Source of the DNA: Blastomonas sp.
GTDB taxonomy: Bacteria > Pseudomonadota > Alphaproteobacteria > Sphingomonadales > Sphingomonadaceae
Assembly: GCF_030373265.1 (NCBI RefSeq)
Contig: NZ_JAUCZC010000002.1
Span: forward strand, 62,001 to 126,000
Direction of reading: 5' to 3'
DNA: 64,000 nt
Below the pieces are notes generated by a model, which had not been told where the DNA came from, made no database searches, and saw nothing but the letters and a program-made list of their open reading frames with translations. The stretch's first letter is position 1. The number at the start of each line of letters is the position of its first letter. Position numbers and translations under genes: made by a program. Shown one piece after another: positions 38,271-46,771 of this stretch.

Positions 38271-39119
38271 TTAAGCCGGCCGCTCGGCCAGCAGGCTGCG
38301 CACCAGCGGCTGCATCTTTTCGTCGTAACGCGCCAGCATCACATGGTCGTCGGCTGTCTCGTAATGCGTGATCAGCTCGCGACCGTTCCACCAGTGCAGC
38401 GCGAAGGCGGGCGGATCGGCGATGATCATGTTGCGGCCATCGGGCACATCGGGGTCGATCGGCGCGAGCTCGAGCGCCACCTGCGGCGCGCTCGACGGGC
38501 AGATCGCGACCGGAAAACCGCTCCAGCTGCTGACGATCGCGCGATGGATATGGCCGCAGACCATGCCGATGATGTTCGAGTGGCCCGCAAAGCAGTCGCG
38601 CAGCCGTTCGACCCAGGGTTCCTCGGGATGGGTGTTCATCCATTCGATCCCCACCTCGATCGGCGGATGGTGCTGAACGATCAGCGTCGGGCGATCGGTC
38701 TGCTCGGCCAGCCGCGCTCGCAGCCAGCGCGCCCGAACCTCGCAGAAAGCCCCGCCATGGCGCCCGTCCTCCAGCGTATCGAGCACCAGCAACCGGATCG
38801 GGCCGGCGTCGACCTCATACTGGACGAATCCGTCGACGACCGGGACGTCGGGGAATTGCGCGCGGAACGTGTTGCGCTGGTCGTGATTGCCCAGGCACAT
38901 ATGCACCGGGAACGGACATACCGAGAGCGCATTCTTCAGCCGGCGATAGCTGTCCTCGTCACCCCGGTCGATCAGATCCCCGGTCGCCAGCAGCATATCG
39001 GGCAGCGGATCGAGGTCGCACAGCATGTTGACCACCTGATCCAGCCGCTTGCGGTTGAATTCGGCAGGATTGTCCGGATCAAAGCCCAGATGAATATCGG
39101 TGATCTGGGCAATCAACAT
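38271..39119 (-). CDS. CpdA/class III-type metallophosphodiesterase
   Basis: 282 residues from the ATG at 39119 (MLIAQITDIHLG); the longer frame to 39293 is inside the cytochrome gene. All metal ligands of the calcineurin-like fold are visible: Asp8-x-His10, Gly47-Asp48, GNHD (77-80), the His pair in VQHHPP (150-151) and GHIH (189-192). The order and spacing resemble cAMP phosphodiesterase CpdA and glycerophosphodiesterase GpdQ. It starts 44 nt after the FHA-multiheme gene, whose operon encodes a protein with two cyclic-nucleotide-binding domains, so cyclic-nucleotide hydrolysis is a reasonable inference. Another phosphodiester substrate is possible. Confidence 0.87.
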   Translation of the reverse strand: MLIAQITDIHLGFDPDNPAEFNRKRLDQVVNMLCDLDPLPDMLLATGDLIDRGDEDSYRRLKNALSVCPFPVHMCLGNHDQRNTFRAQFPDVPVVDGFVQYEVDAGPIRLLVLDTLEDGRHGGAFCEVRARWLRARLAEQTDRPTLIVQHHPPIEVGIEWMNTHPEEPWVERLRDCFAGHSNIIGMVCGHIHRAIVSSWSGFPVAICPSSAPQVALELAPIDPDVPDGRNMIIADPPAFALHWWNGRELITHYETADDHVMLARYDEKMQPLVRSLLAERPA

Positions 39120-39163
39120 CCGGCGTGCTGGTCCTCGATTGTGGGTCAGGTCGGTCTCGCCGG

Positions 39164-41035
39164 CTATGGTCGCAATCGGGCCATTGCGACCGCTGGATGT
39201 GCCATGGCCGCCGTGTTCTCTGGCCGCTTTTTCTTCTTGTCTTGCTCGCGAAGCAGCCATGGAGCCCCCTTGTCGGCGTGGTAATCGTGACACATTGCGC
39301 AGGTGGATTCGACAGGTTTCTTGACCTTGATCAGCGCATCACCGGTTTCACCCACATGGCAGGTGCGGCAATCCTTGATCCCGGGAAGCAGCAGGTCGGA
39401 CGCCGCGCTGGATTTTTCGGCAAGGTGGCAGCTGGTGCACTCTTCCTTGTCGTGCGCGTCGTGCGTGAACCAGCCCTTCTGCAGATAGCGGCTGGTCTGC
39501 GCGACCGGAGCAATCTTGTAGTCCATTCCGCCCGAAGACGATGGCGGAACGACGACATGGCAATCATAGCAGGCGCCGCCGCGGCTGAAGACCTGGCGGA
39601 TCGCCTGATCGGCGCGGGTGCCGCGGAAGTTCACCGCGCGGGCATAGTCCGCCGCGGTCCGCCTGGAATTGACGATGCCAGGCCGCTGGCGCGCCAGACT
39701 GCCCAGGTTGATCGGCCGGGTCGGCGCGGTCGAGCGATAGAAGGCGCGAAGATCGGCCTTCACCTGCTCGGGTTCGCCATGGCGCAGCGTGCGGAAGGTG
39801 CCGCCGACCTTGTCGAACGACAGGCTGTGGCACATCGCACAGCTCTTCTCCATGTCGACCGCGACAAAACCGACGTTGTTCTTGTCCGCCTCATGGCAAT
39901 CGGAGCATTCGAGGGCATCACCGAAATCGTATTTCGCCGAGAGCCGCCGCCCCATCTGCGCAACACCGCCGGTCTTGTTGAGGTGCAGGTCGTGCGGGAA
40001 TTTGAGGCCGTTGTTTTCCTTCGGCTTCTTGTCGAGCGAGATGCGCTTGCGCGGCGCCTTGGCATCGTCGCCCGCGAGCGGACGCACCAGCACGGCGGGC
40101 TGGAACTGCGGATGCGCAGTGCCGAAATCGGCGGCATTGTCGAGCTTGGTGTTGGTCAAGCGCGTGTCCATCCCGTCATGGCATTCAGCACAGAATCGCT
40201 GCTGAGTAGCCTGCATAGCACCTGCCCCCTCATGCTCGGTGTGACATTCGACACAGCGTCCTGCCGGTTTGTTGAAACTGGCGGCCACGAATCGGGTGAA
40301 GGCGGCAAATCCGGTGGGGTCGCCGCGCGCGGTGAGCTGGCGCTGCATCGGCGCATGAGGGCCTGCATCCTTTTCGTGGCAGGTCATGCAGGCGTTGTCG
40401 CGGACCGAGACGAAGGCATCGACATGGCACGACTGGCAATCGTCCTTGAGCGTCTTGTGCGCGAGGCTCAGCTTGCCCGACGACCACAGGCTGTCGGCGT
40501 GGAAGCCATCAGGGCGCGAGACTTTTTCCTTGTACGCCAGGTCCTTGTAGCTCGACCAGGTATAGATCGGCCAGGCCAGGCACGCGATCAGGATCAGCAA
40601 CGCAAAGCCCCACGCGCTCATCCGCTTGCCGGGCAGCAGGCCCTTGAGCGAATAGATCGCACCCTCGTCCTTGTCCTCGGCGCTGTCGGACACCGCCTCG
40701 ACCCGGCGCACGGTAAGGGTGACCCCCTCGCCCTCGGAACCAACCGCAATGATATGGCCGCCAAAGCGCAGCTCGGCACCGCGCGCGATGTCGATCGTCG
40801 CCGTTTCCACGCTGCGACCGTCGACATCGAACGGCTGCTGCGATTGCGCGGTCACGATCAGGTCGTTGCCGCGCCGATCAACCCGCGCGTGAACCGGGTT
40901 CACCGCCAGATCGGGCAGGTGAACGCCATTGCTGGCATTGCGACCGATGAAGATCTCGTCGCCCGCCACCTCGGTCTGGCGGACAATCTCGCTGCCATCT
41001 GCCTTCAAGGCGACCTGGCGGACGATAAACATCAT
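39164..41035 (-). CDS. FHA domain-transmembrane-decaheme cytochrome c fusion
   Basis: 623 residues. Residues about 5-108 form a forkhead-associated domain (IGR at 30-32, His49), although the usual phosphothreonine-contacting Ser is Asn46 (VNPVH instead of VSxxH). A single membrane helix follows at about 140-160, then a multiheme region with ten CXXCH motifs starting at Cys200, 216, 261, 282, 377, 399, 489, 533, 556 and 579. The expected topology is FHA inside and hemes in the periplasm. Many extra His residues (for example FPHDLH, THDAH, DYHADKG) could be distal ligands. I know of no characterised protein with this architecture. It lies 43 nt after the cytochrome-b-like gene and 44 nt before the phosphodiesterase gene. 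Confidence 0.9.
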   Translation of the reverse strand: MMFIVRQVALKADGSEIVRQTEVAGDEIFIGRNASNGVHLPDLAVNPVHARVDRRGNDLIVTAQSQQPFDVDGRSVETATIDIARGAELRFGGHIIAVGSEGEGVTLTVRRVEAVSDSAEDKDEGAIYSLKGLLPGKRMSAWGFALLILIACLAWPIYTWSSYKDLAYKEKVSRPDGFHADSLWSSGKLSLAHKTLKDDCQSCHVDAFVSVRDNACMTCHEKDAGPHAPMQRQLTARGDPTGFAAFTRFVAASFNKPAGRCVECHTEHEGAGAMQATQQRFCAECHDGMDTRLTNTKLDNAADFGTAHPQFQPAVLVRPLAGDDAKAPRKRISLDKKPKENNGLKFPHDLHLNKTGGVAQMGRRLSAKYDFGDALECSDCHEADKNNVGFVAVDMEKSCAMCHSLSFDKVGGTFRTLRHGEPEQVKADLRAFYRSTAPTRPINLGSLARQRPGIVNSRRTAADYARAVNFRGTRADQAIRQVFSRGGACYDCHVVVPPSSSGGMDYKIAPVAQTSRYLQKGWFTHDAHDKEECTSCHLAEKSSAASDLLLPGIKDCRTCHVGETGDALIKVKKPVESTCAMCHDYHADKGAPWLLREQDKKKKRPENTAAMAHPAVAMARLRP

Positions 41036-41078
41036 TCAACTGCCCCCAAAACCCGTAAACCCTGCCCCCGGTGGCGCG

Positions 41079-41990
41079 TCACCAATAGAAGAACACGCTG
41101 AAAATATGCGCCGACAAGGCTGCGAGCAGCGCGAATGTCATCGGCACATGGACGAACAGCCACACCTGGAGCATCGACTTGATCTGCAGATGCTTGCGCA
41201 GCCGGGCCAGCGTCGATTCCTTGCGCTGCAAAAGTCCGTCGACCTTGTCGAGCGGATCGTCTCCCATCCGTGGCTGATAGGCGCGCATCCGCCGCAATTC
41301 GGCGATTGCCGCGCGAGTCTCGCAGCCGCGATAGCTGTTGCCGATGCGCTGGAAGAAATTGCCATCGAACGGGTCCTGCTCGAGCGAGGCCTGCACCAGC
41401 GCCGCCTGCGCCGGATCGAGCGGCTGTGCAGCATCGTGCAGCTGCCGGTCGAGCGAGCGCAATTGCTCGATCATCATCCGCTCGGTCACCGCGCCATCGC
41501 TGTCGGCGCGATTGTTCGACAGGTTGTCGGGCAGCGTGGCATAGAAATAGATGCCGAAGATCCCCGATATGATCACGATCATCATCAGCGACCACGCCAG
41601 TGTGTGGACGTTCCAGCCGAGCTGGAAGCCGGTGTGCAGTGTGCCGATGACGATCAGGCTCAGGCCCAGATAGACATGCGCGCTGGTCCAGGCCTTGAGC
41701 GACCAGCCCCCCGGCGTGATCGCGCGCTTGCGCAGGCCCAGGCAGGTCAACCACAGGATCAGCAGCGCACCGATGGTGCCCAGCGTATAGCCGTACCACG
41801 AGCCGCCATTGTGGCGCGGCTGCACATCGACCAGGAAATAGCTCACCAGACAGGTGATCGACAGCACCGTGGCGATCTTCATCCAGCGGAAGTTGCGATG
41901 CCGCAGAAAGCCATCGTGCATCGAATTGCGCTGGCGACCCGTGGTCTTCTTGCGGACCGCAGGTGCAGCGGGCTGTGCTTGGGTGGCCAT
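41079..41990 (-). CDS. Di-heme cytochrome b-like integral membrane protein
   Basis: 303 residues with about five membrane helices (37-55, 67-85, 102-122, 131-150, 272-302) and a cytoplasmic or periplasmic loop at 152-270. Two helices each carry His-x13-His: His105/His119 and His281/His295. That pattern is the classical arrangement for two hemes b stacked across the membrane between two helices, as in cytochrome bc1-type cytochrome b. His129 is an extra candidate. It starts 3 nt after the flavo-FeS gene, so the two are tightly coupled. The role as electron bridge across the membrane is inferred. Confidence 0.75.
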   Translation of the reverse strand: MATQAQPAAPAVRKKTTGRQRNSMHDGFLRHRNFRWMKIATVLSITCLVSYFLVDVQPRHNGGSWYGYTLGTIGALLILWLTCLGLRKRAITPGGWSLKAWTSAHVYLGLSLIVIGTLHTGFQLGWNVHTLAWSLMMIVIISGIFGIYFYATLPDNLSNNRADSDGAVTERMMIEQLRSLDRQLHDAAQPLDPAQAALVQASLEQDPFDGNFFQRIGNSYRGCETRAAIAELRRMRAYQPRMGDDPLDKVDGLLQRKESTLARLRKHLQIKSMLQVWLFVHVPMTFALLAALSAHIFSVFFYW

Positions 41991-41993
41991 GGC

Positions 41994-44549
41994 TTAAGCC
42001 TCTTCCTGCTCGAGCCGTGCGACGGTCAGGAATTCGTCGGGCGCGACGCGGATCGCCGCTCCCGTCGGGCAGGCGCGCACACAGCTCGGACCGCCCTCGA
42101 TCCCGGCGCACATGTCGCACTTGATCGCCTTTTTGGGCTTCTCGACACCGGGATCGCTGTTGGCATAGGCCCATTTCTTGCTCGGCTCGCCCGGGCCGGG
42201 GCCGAAGCCGAAGAACAGCCAGGAGAGCAGGCTGGGCTTCTTGGGCGGCACCTTGTCCATGCGGATCACGCCATAGGGGCAGTTGCGCTGGCAGTTGCCG
42301 CAACCGATGCAGGTGTCGTTGATATAGACCTCGCCATCGGGACCGCGGTTGATCGCGTTGGGCGGGCAATCGGCCATGCAGTGCGGGTGCTCGCAATGGC
42401 GGCAACTGGTCGGCACGTGCAGATGGGCATAGGACCGCCCGGCCTCGCGGTCGAGCCGCGAGAGCCCGTCATGGCTGTCGGCGCACGCCTTTTCGCAATT
42501 GTCGCAGCCCACGCACAGGCTCTCGTCGATCAGCAGCACGTCGGTCGCCTCGCCGATGCCGTTCTCGACGAGGAAGTTGGCGACGCCCGAATACATGTCG
42601 ACCACGCCCGAGAAGCTGTCCTTCTTGGCCTCGATGAAAGCGTTGATGTCCTGGCGGCTGGCCATGTCGCGCTTGGCGCGCTTGAGCAGTTCGGGATTGG
42701 CCTCGAGCACCTTCTTGAAGGCATCGCCGTCGATACGGATGACCTCGGACTTGATCGCGGCCTTCACCGTTGCGGTGCGCCTTCCGCCCGCGATCAGCGC
42801 CATTTCGCCGACGTAACTGCCTGCCGGCAGATACGACAGGAACACCGGCTTGCCGCCGATTTCCTTCTCGACGATCATCGATCCCACGCGGATCACATAG
42901 ATCTCGTTGCCCTCGTCGCCTTCCTTGAGGATCGCCTCGCCCGGCTTGACCTGACGGATCTTGCTGGTCTCGACCACTTCGGCGATGTCGTCCGGTTTCA
43001 GGCCCGAACCGAACATCTGCAGCAGCAGCCGCTCGGTCGAAATCCGCTCGATCGCCTTTTTCGCGGTCGGCACCTGGCTCTGCAGCTTGAGCGCCGCATT
43101 GCGCGAGATTTCGACGCAGATCGTGTCCTCGGCCGCCACCACGGTCGCCCCGCGCCGCCGCCCCGAGATCAGCCCGACTTCGCCGAAGATCGATCCCTGC
43201 CCGATCGGAACGATCTTGCTGGTGTCACTGGGATCGATCTGCACCGCGACCGAACCTTGCGCGATCGCGAACAGCGATGATCCGGGCGCGGCGCGTTCGA
43301 AGATCACATCCCCCTTGCGGTAGAACTTGGCATCGGAATCGAGCATGAATTCGCGCATCTGCAGCGGGTTCATGCCGTTGAGGATGGTGACGTTCTCGCG
43401 CAGCAGGTCGAGCCACTCGGCAACCGACTTGCGCCCCGGAAGGTCCCTGAACTTGGCTTCGAGGATGGGCTCGTCCGCCGGCTTCAGCTCGGTGTTGCCG
43501 TTGATGAACTCGATGACATCATAGCCCTGGTTCATGCAGTGCTTGATCAGCGGATAGCCCGCCAGCGCGCCGATGACGAAGATTCCCGGCGCGGTCGATT
43601 CGAACACCGGCGACAGCTGCGGAAATGCCAGGCGATCCGCGCTGGTGAACGCGATGCCGCATTCCTCGATGAAGGCGCGCGGCGGGGCAGAACCGATGCG
43701 GGCGATGATCCGGTCGCAGCGCACGCGTTCCTCACCATCGCGGGTGCTGAAGGTAATCCAGCCCGGCTCGACGCTGGCAGTATCGGTCTCGAAGCGGATG
43801 AATAGCTTGCCGGCATTGCGATCGCCGAGCAGCGCCAGCGCGTTGGCCTCCTTGGCGGTGGGGAAGGATTCCTTGGGGCTTGGCGCTTCGGGGCCACGGC
43901 TGACGATGGTGACGACATTGCCCTGCGCCGCATCCTCGGCAAGGCCGCGCGCGTTCTCTATCCCCGCATCGCCCGCACCGATGACCACGATATGCTCGTC
44001 GACATATTCGGTGGGATCGTCGAGCTGATACTGGACATGCGGCAGGTCGCCGCCGGGGCAGCGCATGCGGTTGGGGTTGCCCTGGGTGCCGATCGCGAAC
44101 ACGACGTTTTCCGCCATGATCTTCTCGCCGTTGGTCAGCTCGATCTCGTACGGCGGCGCGTAGCGCTGGATTTCCTTCTTGGTGATCGTGCCATCGCGTC
44201 CGCGCATCTCGATGACATGGACGCTGCCCTCGATGGCGGGGCCGGTGCCGCGGATCGCCTTGGCTTCCGCATTGAACTTGACGTTGACGCCGAGTTCCTT
44301 GGTGCGCTGGTTCCAATTTTCCAGAATCGCCTCGCGCTTGCCGGCCTCGAATTCCTGGTCCGAACGCAGGACGAGCTGCGATGGCGTCGCCATCACGTGC
44401 TTGCCCTTCTGGTACTTGTAGATCGTATCGGAAAGGTGGTCGGTCTTTTCGAGCAGGATGTGGCTCAAGCCAAGACTCGCGGCGCGACCGGCGGCGCTCT
44501 TGCCCGCCGGGCCCGACCCGATGATAGCAACGCGGAAAATCTCGCTCAC
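41994..44549 (-). CDS. FAD/NAD(P) oxidoreductase-double cNMP-binding-4x[4Fe-4S] fusion protein
   Basis: 851 residues, GTG start. Domains in order: a two-dinucleotide-binding oxidoreductase (FAD motif GSGPAG at 11-16, NAD(P) motif GAGDAG at 191-196, second FAD site GIFVIGALAG at 322-331) with no redox-active CxxC. Then cyclic-nucleotide-binding domain 1 (about 395-505, phosphate cassette FGEVGLISGRRRGATV at 455-470) and domain 2 (about 512-625, cassette VGEMALIAGGRRTATV at 580-595), both with the Glu and Arg that contact cNMP. Last comes a DmsB/HybA-like ferredoxin region with 16 cysteines in four clusters: Cys679/682/685/689, 716/719/724/728, 747/750/753/757 and 811/814/823/827. No signal peptide, so cytoplasmic. 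First gene of the four-gene operon. Confidence 0.9.
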   Translation of the reverse strand: MSEIFRVAIIGSGPAGKSAAGRAASLGLSHILLEKTDHLSDTIYKYQKGKHVMATPSQLVLRSDQEFEAGKREAILENWNQRTKELGVNVKFNAEAKAIRGTGPAIEGSVHVIEMRGRDGTITKKEIQRYAPPYEIELTNGEKIMAENVVFAIGTQGNPNRMRCPGGDLPHVQYQLDDPTEYVDEHIVVIGAGDAGIENARGLAEDAAQGNVVTIVSRGPEAPSPKESFPTAKEANALALLGDRNAGKLFIRFETDTASVEPGWITFSTRDGEERVRCDRIIARIGSAPPRAFIEECGIAFTSADRLAFPQLSPVFESTAPGIFVIGALAGYPLIKHCMNQGYDVIEFINGNTELKPADEPILEAKFRDLPGRKSVAEWLDLLRENVTILNGMNPLQMREFMLDSDAKFYRKGDVIFERAAPGSSLFAIAQGSVAVQIDPSDTSKIVPIGQGSIFGEVGLISGRRRGATVVAAEDTICVEISRNAALKLQSQVPTAKKAIERISTERLLLQMFGSGLKPDDIAEVVETSKIRQVKPGEAILKEGDEGNEIYVIRVGSMIVEKEIGGKPVFLSYLPAGSYVGEMALIAGGRRTATVKAAIKSEVIRIDGDAFKKVLEANPELLKRAKRDMASRQDINAFIEAKKDSFSGVVDMYSGVANFLVENGIGEATDVLLIDESLCVGCDNCEKACADSHDGLSRLDREAGRSYAHLHVPTSCRHCEHPHCMADCPPNAINRGPDGEVYINDTCIGCGNCQRNCPYGVIRMDKVPPKKPSLLSWLFFGFGPGPGEPSKKWAYANSDPGVEKPKKAIKCDMCAGIEGGPSCVRACPTGAAIRVAPDEFLTVARLEQEEA

Positions 44550-44816: not shown

Positions 44817-45833
44817 ATGACCCAGAGCACTCCGATATCTCCCGCCGCGCCGCCCGAGGGCCCCGCCCCGGCAGCACGCCCGCGCGGAGGATTCGGCATC
44901 GCCCGCATCGCATTGTTTGCTGCGGCGCTGATCGCCGCCGGAGCGGTGGGTTACAAGGTCTACACCGATCAGGCGCCGACCAACGCCGCGCCAACTGCGC
45001 CCCTCGCCGCCGATGGCGCACCCGCCTCGGTCGATCAGGTGATCGCCGCGCTCGAGGTCAAGCTGCAGGACAATCCCGATGACGCCGAAGGCTGGCGGAT
45101 GCTGGGCTGGTCATATTTCGAAACCGGGCGCTTTGCTGAATCCGCCACCGCGATGCGGCGAGCGATCCAGTTGGCTCCGGGCAATTCGGAGTTTCACTCG
45201 ATGTTGGGTGAGGCGTTGGTGATGGCCAGCAAGGACTCGGCGATCAGCCCCGATGCCCGCGCTGCATTCAAGCGCGCGGTGGAGATCGACCCCAAGGATG
45301 CGCGTGCACGGTATTTCCTTGCCGCCGCCAAGGACATCGACGGCCAGCATGCCGAGGCGATCGAGGACTGGTTCGGGCTGCTCGCCGAGACCCCTGCCGA
45401 TGCGCCTTACGCCAACGACATCCGCGACGTGATCCGCAATGTCGGCAAGGAACGCGGGATCGAGGTCGAGAAGCGGCTCGCCTCGGCGAAGTTTGCACCG
45501 CCCGCAGGCGGGTTCCAGACCGATGGGGCGCAGGCCGCGACCGCAGGCATCCCCGGCCCAAGCCCTGACCAGATGGCCGCCGCCGCAGCGCTGCCGCAGG
45601 GCCAGCAGGATATGATGGTCGCACAGATGGTCGACGGCCTTGCCGATCGGCTGAAGCGCGAGCCGGGCGATACCGATGGCTGGATCATGCTGCTGCGCAG
45701 CCGGATGCAGTTGGGTGAGACCGGAAAGGCGCAGGCCGCGTTGCGCGATGCGACCGCAGCTTTGAAGAACAACGCCGCCGATCAGCGCCGCGTGCGCGAA
45801 GCGGCGTCGGCACTGGGCGTACCGGGGGCCTGA
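44817..45833 (+). CDS. CcmI/NrfG-like TPR protein (c-type cytochrome biogenesis)
   Basis: 338 residues. A cytoplasmic Pro/Ala-rich tail, one membrane helix (about 27-47), then TPR repeats from about residue 70 (LEVKLQDNPDDAEGWRMLGWSYFETGRFAESATAMRRA) and a second TPR-like portion at the C-terminus (LADRLKREPGDTDGWIMLLRSRM). This is the layout of CcmI/CycH, which presents apocytochrome c to the heme ligation machinery in the periplasm. Divergent from the operon encoding a decaheme cytochrome. The rest of the ccm genes are not in this window. A general TPR lipid or cell-wall protein is an alternative. Confidence 0.8.
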   Translation: MTQSTPISPAAPPEGPAPAARPRGGFGIARIALFAAALIAAGAVGYKVYTDQAPTNAAPTAPLAADGAPASVDQVIAALEVKLQDNPDDAEGWRMLGWSYFETGRFAESATAMRRAIQLAPGNSEFHSMLGEALVMASKDSAISPDARAAFKRAVEIDPKDARARYFLAAAKDIDGQHAEAIEDWFGLLAETPADAPYANDIRDVIRNVGKERGIEVEKRLASAKFAPPAGGFQTDGAQAATAGIPGPSPDQMAAAAALPQGQQDMMVAQMVDGLADRLKREPGDTDGWIMLLRSRMQLGETGKAQAALRDATAALKNNAADQRRVREAASALGVPGA

Positions 45834-45924: not shown

Positions 45925-46018
45925 TCAATGGTTTGCACGCCATTAGCCAAGTCGTGGCATGGGCGCTCGCGTCTCTGGCGCACCCTATCTTACCCATCAA
46001 CCTAAGCCGGGACGCTTT

Positions 46019-46771
46019 ATGCCGGAGCTGGATCATATCGAGCAGAGCTGGCGCGCGATCGAGTCTGCGTCGACGCTCGACCTTCTGCTGCACGTGATGG
46101 TGGCTGCCGCGCGCCATATCGGGTTCGAATACGGAGCCGTTGCGCGTCACGTCCATGTGCAATCCGGGCTGATGCTGCCTGAGATCAAAAGCAACTATCC
46201 CACCGAATGGCAGGACGTGTTCCGGCGCCGCGACTACAGCCTGTCCAGCCCCATTCTGGCCGCGTGCCAGCGCAGGGGCGGCGCGATCCGCTGGAGCGAG
46301 CTCGACGCCATCATCCCGCTCACCCGCATCCAACGCGAATATCTCGACGAACTGCGCAGGCTGGGCCTGGCCTCGGGGTGCACCGTCGCCAGCCATATGC
46401 CCGACAGGCCGACCGTTTCGGTGCATTTCGTGGTTCGTGACAACGGCGCGCTCAACCCGCGCGCGTTCATGCTGGCGATCCTGCTCGGCACCGCCGCAGG
46501 ACAACAGGCACGCTCCTTGTGGCAATCGGCGCTGCCCGACGCCGCGGCCGAACTGGCCGAAAAACTATCGCCGCGTCAGGTCGATTGCATCAAGCTGGTG
46601 GCGCGCGGCATGACGAGCTGGGAAATCGCCAGCGTGCTGGGCATATCCGACCAGACCGTCAGCGAATACCTGACCGACGCCCGCCGCCGCCTTGCCGTAT
46701 CCAACCGCGCGCAACTGGTGCTCAAGGCACTGAAGCAGGGCTATTTCACGCTGGACGATGTCACCGAATAG
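46019..46771 (+). CDS. LuxR-family transcriptional regulator (solo) with autoinducer-binding domain
   Basis: 250 residues from the ATG at 46019; an ATG at 45959 would add 20 residues. N-terminal autoinducer-binding domain (about 15-160) and C-terminal LuxR HTH (about 180-245, LSPRQVDCIKLVARGMTSWEIASVLGIS beginning at about 184). Of the ligand-pocket residues known from TraR/LuxR, Trp57, Pro71 and Trp85 are kept (Trp64, Pro78, Trp92 here), but Tyr61 is Phe68 and the acyl-homoserine-lactone-binding Asp70 is Ser77. No luxI synthase is nearby. A non-AHL or altered ligand is likely. Confidence 0.9.
   Translation: MPELDHIEQSWRAIESASTLDLLLHVMVAAARHIGFEYGAVARHVHVQSGLMLPEIKSNYPTEWQDVFRRRDYSLSSPILAACQRRGGAIRWSELDAIIPLTRIQREYLDELRRLGLASGCTVASHMPDRPTVSVHFVVRDNGALNPRAFMLAILLGTAAGQQARSLWQSALPDAAAELAEKLSPRQVDCIKLVARGMTSWEIASVLGISDQTVSEYLTDARRRLAVSNRAQLVLKALKQGYFTLDDVTE

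Follow-up and report, generated by a model that had tools for sequence, protein, structure and literature searches.

Porin-cytochrome conduits such as Mtr of Shewanella and Pcc and Ext of Geobacter lead electrons along a multiheme path that starts at the inner membrane and ends at a large multiheme cytochrome with a porin-like protein, and their entry subunits, of the CymA, CbcL and ImcH types, oxidize quinol. Here we describe a gene system with a similar multiheme path, found in a stretch of 64,000 nucleotides (nt) from Blastomonas sp. (assembly GCF_030373265.1, contig NZ_JAUCZC010000002.1, positions 62,001 to 126,000; hereafter the window). Four minus-strand open reading frames (ORFs), P0001 (851 amino acids, aa; 41994..44549), P0002 (303 aa; 41079..41990), P0003 (623 aa; 39164..41035) and P0004 (282 aa; 38271..39119), occupy positions 38271-44549 of the window with intergenic gaps of 3, 43 and 44 nt, figures that take Met59 of the longest ORF, at 39119, as the start of P0004. 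An earlier note on the bare sequence had reported four genes at this place with these gaps, and an ORF check agrees when P0004 is read from Met59. The locus belongs to a real, conserved and apparently undescribed trans-envelope electron-transfer system, of which the window encodes the inner half.

The system departs from the known conduits at both ends. Its predicted entry protein, P0001, is an NAD(P)H-dependent flavoprotein with iron-sulfur (Fe-S) clusters and two cyclic-nucleotide-binding (CNB) domains, not a quinol-oxidizing subunit. By family cut-off it contains no MtrA/DmsE- or MtrC-family protein (P0003 scores 26.5 bits against the MtrA/DmsE-family decaheme model TIGR03508, cut-off 192.2), its porin-like protein belongs to a family without a Pfam or NCBIfam model, and its surface candidate, a cytochrome with LVIVD repeats, has a local match of about 50 residues to ExtM of the Geobacter Ext selenite/tellurite operon (NF040943; 65.6 bits, cut-off 800). 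Judged by the cut-offs tested, the predicted products are a trans-envelope cytochrome conduit outside the Mtr/DmsE, MtrC and Ext families.

Individual parts recall other systems. In the di-heme module of NADPH oxidases (NOX) and ferric reductases (FRD), cytoplasmic NAD(P)H and flavin adenine dinucleotide (FAD) supply two stacked b hemes, each pair of His ligands being spaced 14 residues apart on two helices, and a similar layout is predicted for this system; here, however, the membrane protein P0002 matches no Pfam family, the flavin domain is thioredoxin-reductase-like and linked via four Fe-S clusters, and the electron recipient would be a c-type decaheme cytochrome rather than O2 or Fe(III) directly. 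One report describes a Red Sea brine thioredoxin reductase in which a single CNB domain is joined to an FAD/NAD(P) domain (PMC6544261); P0001 differs from it by a second CNB domain, by four [4Fe-4S] clusters and by a flavin domain devoid of invariant Cys. Nucleotide messengers also regulate electron export in Geobacter, where cyclic GMP-AMP and cyclic di-GMP reportedly act on gene expression, largely through riboswitches (PMC8835794, PMC6456294, PMC12285248), whereas here the sensor domains lie within the electron-carrying protein itself. We recognized no description of this gene set in the literature searched, most subscription journals lying outside that search, in line with the earlier note, which knew of no characterized system of this composition. 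The words Sphingo-, Novosphingobium, Erythrobacter and Alphaproteobacteria are absent from the main text of a 2014 survey of porin-cytochrome clusters (PMC4245776).

Five genes with one distribution

Strong matches to P0001, P0002 and P0003 occur in the same 39 of 196 Sphingomonadales genomes, adjacent and in order in 39/39, which rules out chance neighbors. Strong matches form a class set apart by a wide gap in score (P0001 at least 867 bits, next 202; P0002 at least 269, next 47; P0003 at least 414, next 56); the raw P0001 search gives 194/196 since single domains match. These genome searches were a loose first look in which only some candidates were scored, so that misses are possible. P0001 is split in two pieces in one genome (G149). 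All 39 carriers are members of the window's family. Five genera (g3, g4, g6, g7 and g15) mix carriers and non-carriers, which suggests several gains or losses of the complete set.

The same arrangement extends beyond the order. Strong P0002 matches are present in 37/385 genomes of the class and 15/398 genomes of the phylum, five of the latter 15 outside the class. At 58 of the 62 loci with a strong P0002 match (some genomes counted twice), sequence coding for CNB and Fe-S domains lies upstream and a decaheme cytochrome downstream on the same strand; the four exceptions are a contig end (L128), two loci with no P0001 (L136 and L137) and a short flank (L149, complete as L177). P0001 and P0002 are naturally fused into one 1118-aa protein in L177, an arrangement that speaks for direct electron transfer between the two. 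Co-occurrence, order and fusion thus support P0001, P0002 and P0003 as one system, and with them the core of the four-gene system proposed in the earlier note. That note had also offered loss of gene order beyond close relatives as grounds for abandoning its proposal; order is kept in other classes.

The system also occurs on large Sphingobium plasmids: L192 (NZ_CP020539.1) and 11 further records (12), one of them typed conjugative.

Every part of the wire had been attributed to the four window genes, a description that holds for the inner half and fails on completeness. The window genes as a complete system were rejected after a "multiheme c-type cytochrome" near the system in a Sphingobium plasmid, used to search the Blastomonas genome itself, led to a homologue on contig C5 and revealed a partner module (about C5:10175-20183). 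This outer module comprises a tetraheme cytochrome of the C554 type and an HbpS-like protein whose signal resembles that of a lipoprotein, together with two adjacent genes for a porin-like protein of 720 aa and a 1440-aa cytochrome with ten CXXCH motifs and LVIVD repeats. The genes themselves are present on C5; an outer-membrane location of their products, and their assembly into a complex, are predicted.

The decaheme LVIVD cytochrome is found in 39/196 genomes of the order and the porin-like protein in 39/196, and both sets of genomes are identical to the one that carries P0001, P0002 and P0003. This identity of five sets is our strongest single result and lies beyond what the earlier note had found. 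It is not explained by linkage alone, since the outer module is far from P0001-P0003 in 17/39 genomes (more than 100 kb away in 6, on another contig in 11, some of which could be linked across an assembly gap) and within 3-32 kb in the other 22/39. At 14/20 loci from outside the order, the genes for P0002, P0003, an HbpS-like and a porin-like protein stand together in a same-strand array, mostly with a large decaheme cytochrome next, and P0001 heads the array in 12 of those 14.

A predicted path from NAD(P)H to the cell surface

We think it probable, judging from domains and motifs, that these genes encode a conduit running from NAD(P)H through the inner membrane to the cell surface, with a cyclic-nucleotide-controlled entry in P0001 and the C5 module as its outer half. 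Hydride from NAD(P)H would pass onto FAD in P0001, and electrons would then move via its four [4Fe-4S] clusters to two b hemes of P0002 and on to the ten c hemes of the inner-membrane-anchored P0003, which would bring them into the periplasm. The tetraheme cytochrome, HbpS-like lipoprotein, porin-like protein and decaheme LVIVD cytochrome of C5 would supply the remainder of the path. No quinol-oxidizing subunit is seen in the set, and the conduit therefore probably bypasses the quinone pool.

P0001 combines the components expected of such an entry. Its flavoprotein domain (residues 1-345; 43515..44549, minus strand) has by sequence a thioredoxin-reductase/YpdA fold, scoring 84.0 bits with Pyr_redox_3 (Pfam cut-off 30), 99.2 bits with NCBIfam YpdA (far under the cut-off of 339.9) and 34.4 bits with the thioredoxin reductase model TIGR01292, whose cut-off is 343.45. 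A conserved redox-active CxxC is missing: an alignment of 21 homologues (rows in this and the other alignments were hand-chosen, A1-A7) has no invariant Cys ahead of residue 679. The C-terminal ferredoxin domain (residues 672-843; 42021..42536, minus strand) scores above cut-off with several 4Fe-4S Pfam models and contains complete four-Cys motifs at residues 679, 716, 747 and 811, all 16 Cys being invariant in 21/21 homologues.

P0002 is the candidate membrane carrier, with about five membrane helices (hydrophobic stretches near residues 39-57, 68-86, 100-122, 131-149 and 276-294). Its residues H105 and H119 in one helix (41625..41693, minus strand) and H281 and H295 in another (41097..41165, minus strand), 14 residues apart in each case, are conserved without exception among near (29/29) and distant (25/25) relatives. 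They fit what we take to be the NOX/ferric reductase pattern, in which each of two helices has a pair of His spaced by about 13-14 residues, and are the predicted ligands of two b hemes. The protein matched 0 Pfam and 0 NCBIfam families, including the ferric reductase candidate PF01794, and a profile search of the PDB returned nothing credible.

P0003 joins a cytoplasmic forkhead-associated (FHA)-like domain (residues 1-125; 40661..41035), one transmembrane helix (residues 139-157; 40565..40621, from hydrophobicity) and a proposed periplasmic decaheme part (residues 179-590; 39266..40501), all on the minus strand. Besides ten CXXCH motifs, it has ten further His (193, 227, 268, 308, 348, 351, 419, 525, 528 and 586) that are invariant in 23/23 near homologues, so that each of ten hemes could have bis-His ligation. 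Across 21 more widely sampled rows that reach other classes, the heme motifs are invariant, as are nine of the ten additional His, and the tenth is conserved at 90% or more. The hydrophobic anchor suggests an inner-membrane cytochrome whose heme part extends into the periplasm. Pfam scores and the Cys, His and CXXCH motifs thus bear out the redox and sensor domains that had been read from the letters, with FHA marginal and degenerate.

Relatives of P0002 indicate a modular design with pyridine nucleotide as a recurring partner. We examined 7/13 weak P0002 matches in the order, 8/13 in the class and 4/4 in the phylum (genome G535 counting in both of the last two). In 9 of the 11 loci L178-L188, a protein with CNB domains and four clusters and no flavin domain has a P0002-like protein and a ten-heme cytochrome as neighbors (type II, as distinct from type I proteins like P0001), and a separate reductase with NAD_binding_1 and Fer2 domains is present in both type II loci whose neighbor was scanned (L186 and L181). 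In four loci (L101, L102, L103 and L107), the P0002-like protein is accompanied by an FeS-FAD protein without CNB domains and by cytochromes with 19-49 CXXCH motifs. L104-L106 combine a P0002-like protein with a seven-heme cytochrome, and L104, the one locus of this kind (type IV) that was scanned, adds an NAD/FAD/Fer2 protein with NAD_binding_1 and Fer2 domains. That different pyridine-nucleotide modules accompany related P0002 proteins supports NAD(P)H as the donor. A second porin-like family links two loci of type I (L161 and L164) with three of type II (L182, L184 and L186).

Two of these loci hold further unusual genes. L102 (Sphingomonadaceae) encodes a 1229-aa protein with 49 CXXCH motifs (L102:10840-14529) beside a 24-CXXCH protein and the P0002-like protein, and L101 has an ankyrin-repeat-like protein, recognized by eye, between its FeS-FAD and P0002-like genes (L101:9845-11731).

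The same partners bear on the direction of flow. Multiheme chains are generally reversible, and the genes give no direction: the set is without an electron-consuming cytoplasmic enzyme or a quinone reductase that would settle it. Electrons might thus run inward, with a surface donor (reduced metal, humics or an electrode) oxidized by the LVIVD cytochrome, P0001 reducing NAD(P)+ or another cytoplasmic acceptor and cyclic nucleotide controlling uptake. Reduction of NAD(P)+ requires a very low-potential donor or energy input, however, and the pairing of three kinds of P0002-like relatives with NAD(P)H-type flavoprotein or ferredoxin-reductase modules better fits NAD(P)H as donor. We consider an inward flow quite unlikely.

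Proposed control at the entry step

The feature that sets P0001 apart is a pair of CNB domains, which match cNMP_binding (PF00027; cyclic nucleoside monophosphate, cNMP) in two stretches at 120.3 bits (cut-off 27.5) and stand in the chain between the flavin and Fe-S domains. CNB1 (about residues 405-490; 43080..43337, minus strand) has the pocket FGEVGLISGRRRGAT and CNB2 (residues 532-618; 42696..42956, minus strand) the pocket VGEMALIAGGRRTAT. Both keep a Glu (E457 and E582) and an Arg (R466 and R591), presumably those of the phosphate-binding cassette that contact the ligand, in 21/21 homologues at 43-79% identity to the window protein, which suggests that these type I pockets bind cyclic nucleotide. 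The pocket residues examined do not discriminate between cyclic AMP (cAMP) and cyclic GMP. From the position of the two domains, a bound nucleotide could open or close the entry step. A candidate source of ligand is a pair of class III cyclases encoded in the genome, one of which has a CHASE2 domain (the search covered class III alone).

One alternative accepts the conduit and removes the second-messenger gating: the CNB domains would be structural, or would respond to a signal that is not a 3',5'-cyclic mononucleotide. A CNB fold need not bind a ligand, and type II relatives lack a recognizable pocket in at least one CNB domain. The substrate class of the neighboring phosphoesterase P0004 also includes 2',3'-cNMP, as reported for such enzymes (PMC4222275). 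The invariance of both Glu/Arg pairs across the type I homologues is nevertheless hard to explain without a ligand, and we find this alternative doubtful, if a serious one.

The earlier note went further than cyclic nucleotide. In its full version, cyclic nucleotide and phosphorylation read by the FHA domain would gate the conduit jointly, with P0004 as a dedicated cAMP phosphodiesterase. P0003 does carry an FHA-like domain at its cytoplasmic N-terminus, at 21.0 bits marginally above the PF00498 cut-off of 20.7, and its Gly31-Arg32 pair is kept in 23/23 near and 21/21 wider homologues. The Ser at position 46, however, which by eye lies four residues before a conserved His and which we take to be the canonical phosphothreonine-site serine, occurs in none of the 23 near homologues and in 3/21 of the wider set. 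A search of the Blastomonas genome (95.8% complete) for kinases of the PF00069 family, the only one sought, returned none, although it was positive in 11/14 control genomes. Given the serine counts and the kinase search, phosphorylation gating was dropped.

The part assigned to P0004 stands on somewhat different ground. Its start at Met59 gives a calcineurin-like phosphoesterase that scores 59.7 bits with Metallophos (cut-off 21.5) and has all five metal-binding motifs, with 2zo9 and Rv0805 as closest solved relatives. The label CpdA-like is not secure. P0004 shares metallophosphoesterase fold motifs with the class III phosphodiesterases SpdA and CpdA and scores under both NCBIfam cut-offs, at 138.8 bits against 400 for SpdA (2',3'-cNMP phosphodiesterase) and 80.9 against 225 for CpdA (3',5'-cAMP phosphodiesterase), so that it stands nearer SpdA, for which the same report gives little or no activity on 3',5'-cAMP (PMC4222275). 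P0004 adjoins P0003 in 66 of the 73 Sphingomonadales loci with a complete P0003 (3 have it further away and 4 are without it), as a built-in part might; outside the order it is found in only 1/20 loci and absent from 19. These counts mark it as a Sphingomonadales companion gene, whose substrate is not readable from its sequence, and give weak support to a built-in role. Taken as a whole, the doubly gated version with a dedicated phosphodiesterase appears very improbable.

In two loci an FAD-dependent oxidoreductase-like ORF, phytoene-desaturase-like by eye, lies between P0003 and P0004 (L084:14378-15994 and L098:13619-15331).

Our own proposal of gating is confined to the CNB domains, and a bolder form of it is more tentative. 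Possibly, the system belongs to a class of ligand-gated electron channels from cytoplasm to cell surface, NAD(P)H-driven and quinone-independent, in which a cyclic mononucleotide on the entry protein would switch the current on and off within seconds and without new gene expression. Inner modules, whose flavin is either built in or supplied by a separate reductase, and outer modules with either of two porin-like families would be combined in various ways across Proteobacteria, including aerobic sphingomonads, which to our knowledge are not known to breathe on solids.

Genomic setting and implications

The gene next to the entry protein raises a different possibility for the destination of the electrons. 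A CcmI/CycH-type gene with tetratricopeptide repeats, a cytochrome c maturation gene that we do not claim as part of the conduit (44817..45833, plus strand; PF23914, 84.6 bits), is divergent from P0001, as it is in 76 of 80 named loci, 10 of which have ccmF too (the 80 are the best of 576, all near relatives). P0001-P0003 might then feed periplasmic enzymes, such as a peroxidase or the thiol and heme reduction of cytochrome c maturation, with the porin-like protein admitting substrate; the location of the LVIVD cytochrome and the barrel nature of its partner are, after all, predictions. Outside the order, however, a ccm neighborhood is seen in 1/20 loci (L172), whereas the array of HbpS-like, porin-like and decaheme genes is present outside the order, and cytochrome c maturation works in genomes without the system, which 157/196 genomes of the order lack. 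A route ending in the periplasm therefore seems unlikely.

Several observations tell against a gated conduit to the surface in the form proposed above. Two loci of one genus (L167 and L168) have P0002, P0003, HbpS-like and porin-like genes with no P0001 in front. The pocket motif appears in one CNB domain of 6/9 type II proteins and in neither domain of 3/9. No porin-like gene is present in the available flanks of L169, L172, L176 and L177 (that of L176 reaching only about 700 bases past P0003), and the outer module of L161 and L164 is of another kind. The Blastomonas porin-like protein has no relative in Pfam, NCBIfam or, by profile search, the PDB, where the decaheme LVIVD profile found nothing either. 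What points to a barrel is an aromatic C-terminus (porin-like chains terminate in Tyr or Phe), a very weak porin match of a homologue (18.6 bits against a cut-off of 250) and an excess of amphipathic windows over shuffles that varies among homologues (3.5, 1.6, 2.3, 1.0 and 3.2 standard deviations, SD, in five proteins of two porin-like families; -1.3, -0.1, 0.8 and 0.8 SD in four controls). Finally, sites of FNR, CRP and sigma-70 type were sought upstream and none found. The promoter scan of the upstream region found 0. In 81 sequences from upstream of P0001, no pattern of the FNR, CRP, FixK, Dnr or ArcA-like kind matched more than once, which is near or below shuffled means, and a terminator scan gave 5 against 4.5 expected.

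Other genes of the window complete the setting. A LuxR-type regulator with an autoinducer-binding domain (77.5 bits; no signal-synthase search was made) lies at 45959-46771 on the plus strand. On the minus strand are an M3 peptidase downstream of P0004 (35937-38177), nearest to peptidyl-dipeptidase Dcp, and a dcw-type cell division and cell wall cluster (11924-33488; FtsZ, FtsQ, MurB, Mur ligases, FtsW and MraW among ten ORFs scanned).

If the conduit is gated as proposed, a second messenger would act directly on a trans-envelope current rather than on genes, which would be a new principle. Aerobic, genetically workable Alphaproteobacteria would have an unsuspected electron outlet, widespread "hypothetical" and "cytochrome c3 family" genes would gain a function, and bioelectronics would gain a switchable electron-export module. 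In Sinorhizobium, the activity of the cyclase CyaC reportedly follows the redox state of the respiratory chain (PMC10463352), which makes a loop from redox state to cAMP to valve a concrete hypothesis. The moment-to-moment decision of bacteria on when to discharge reducing power to the outside would then become testable.

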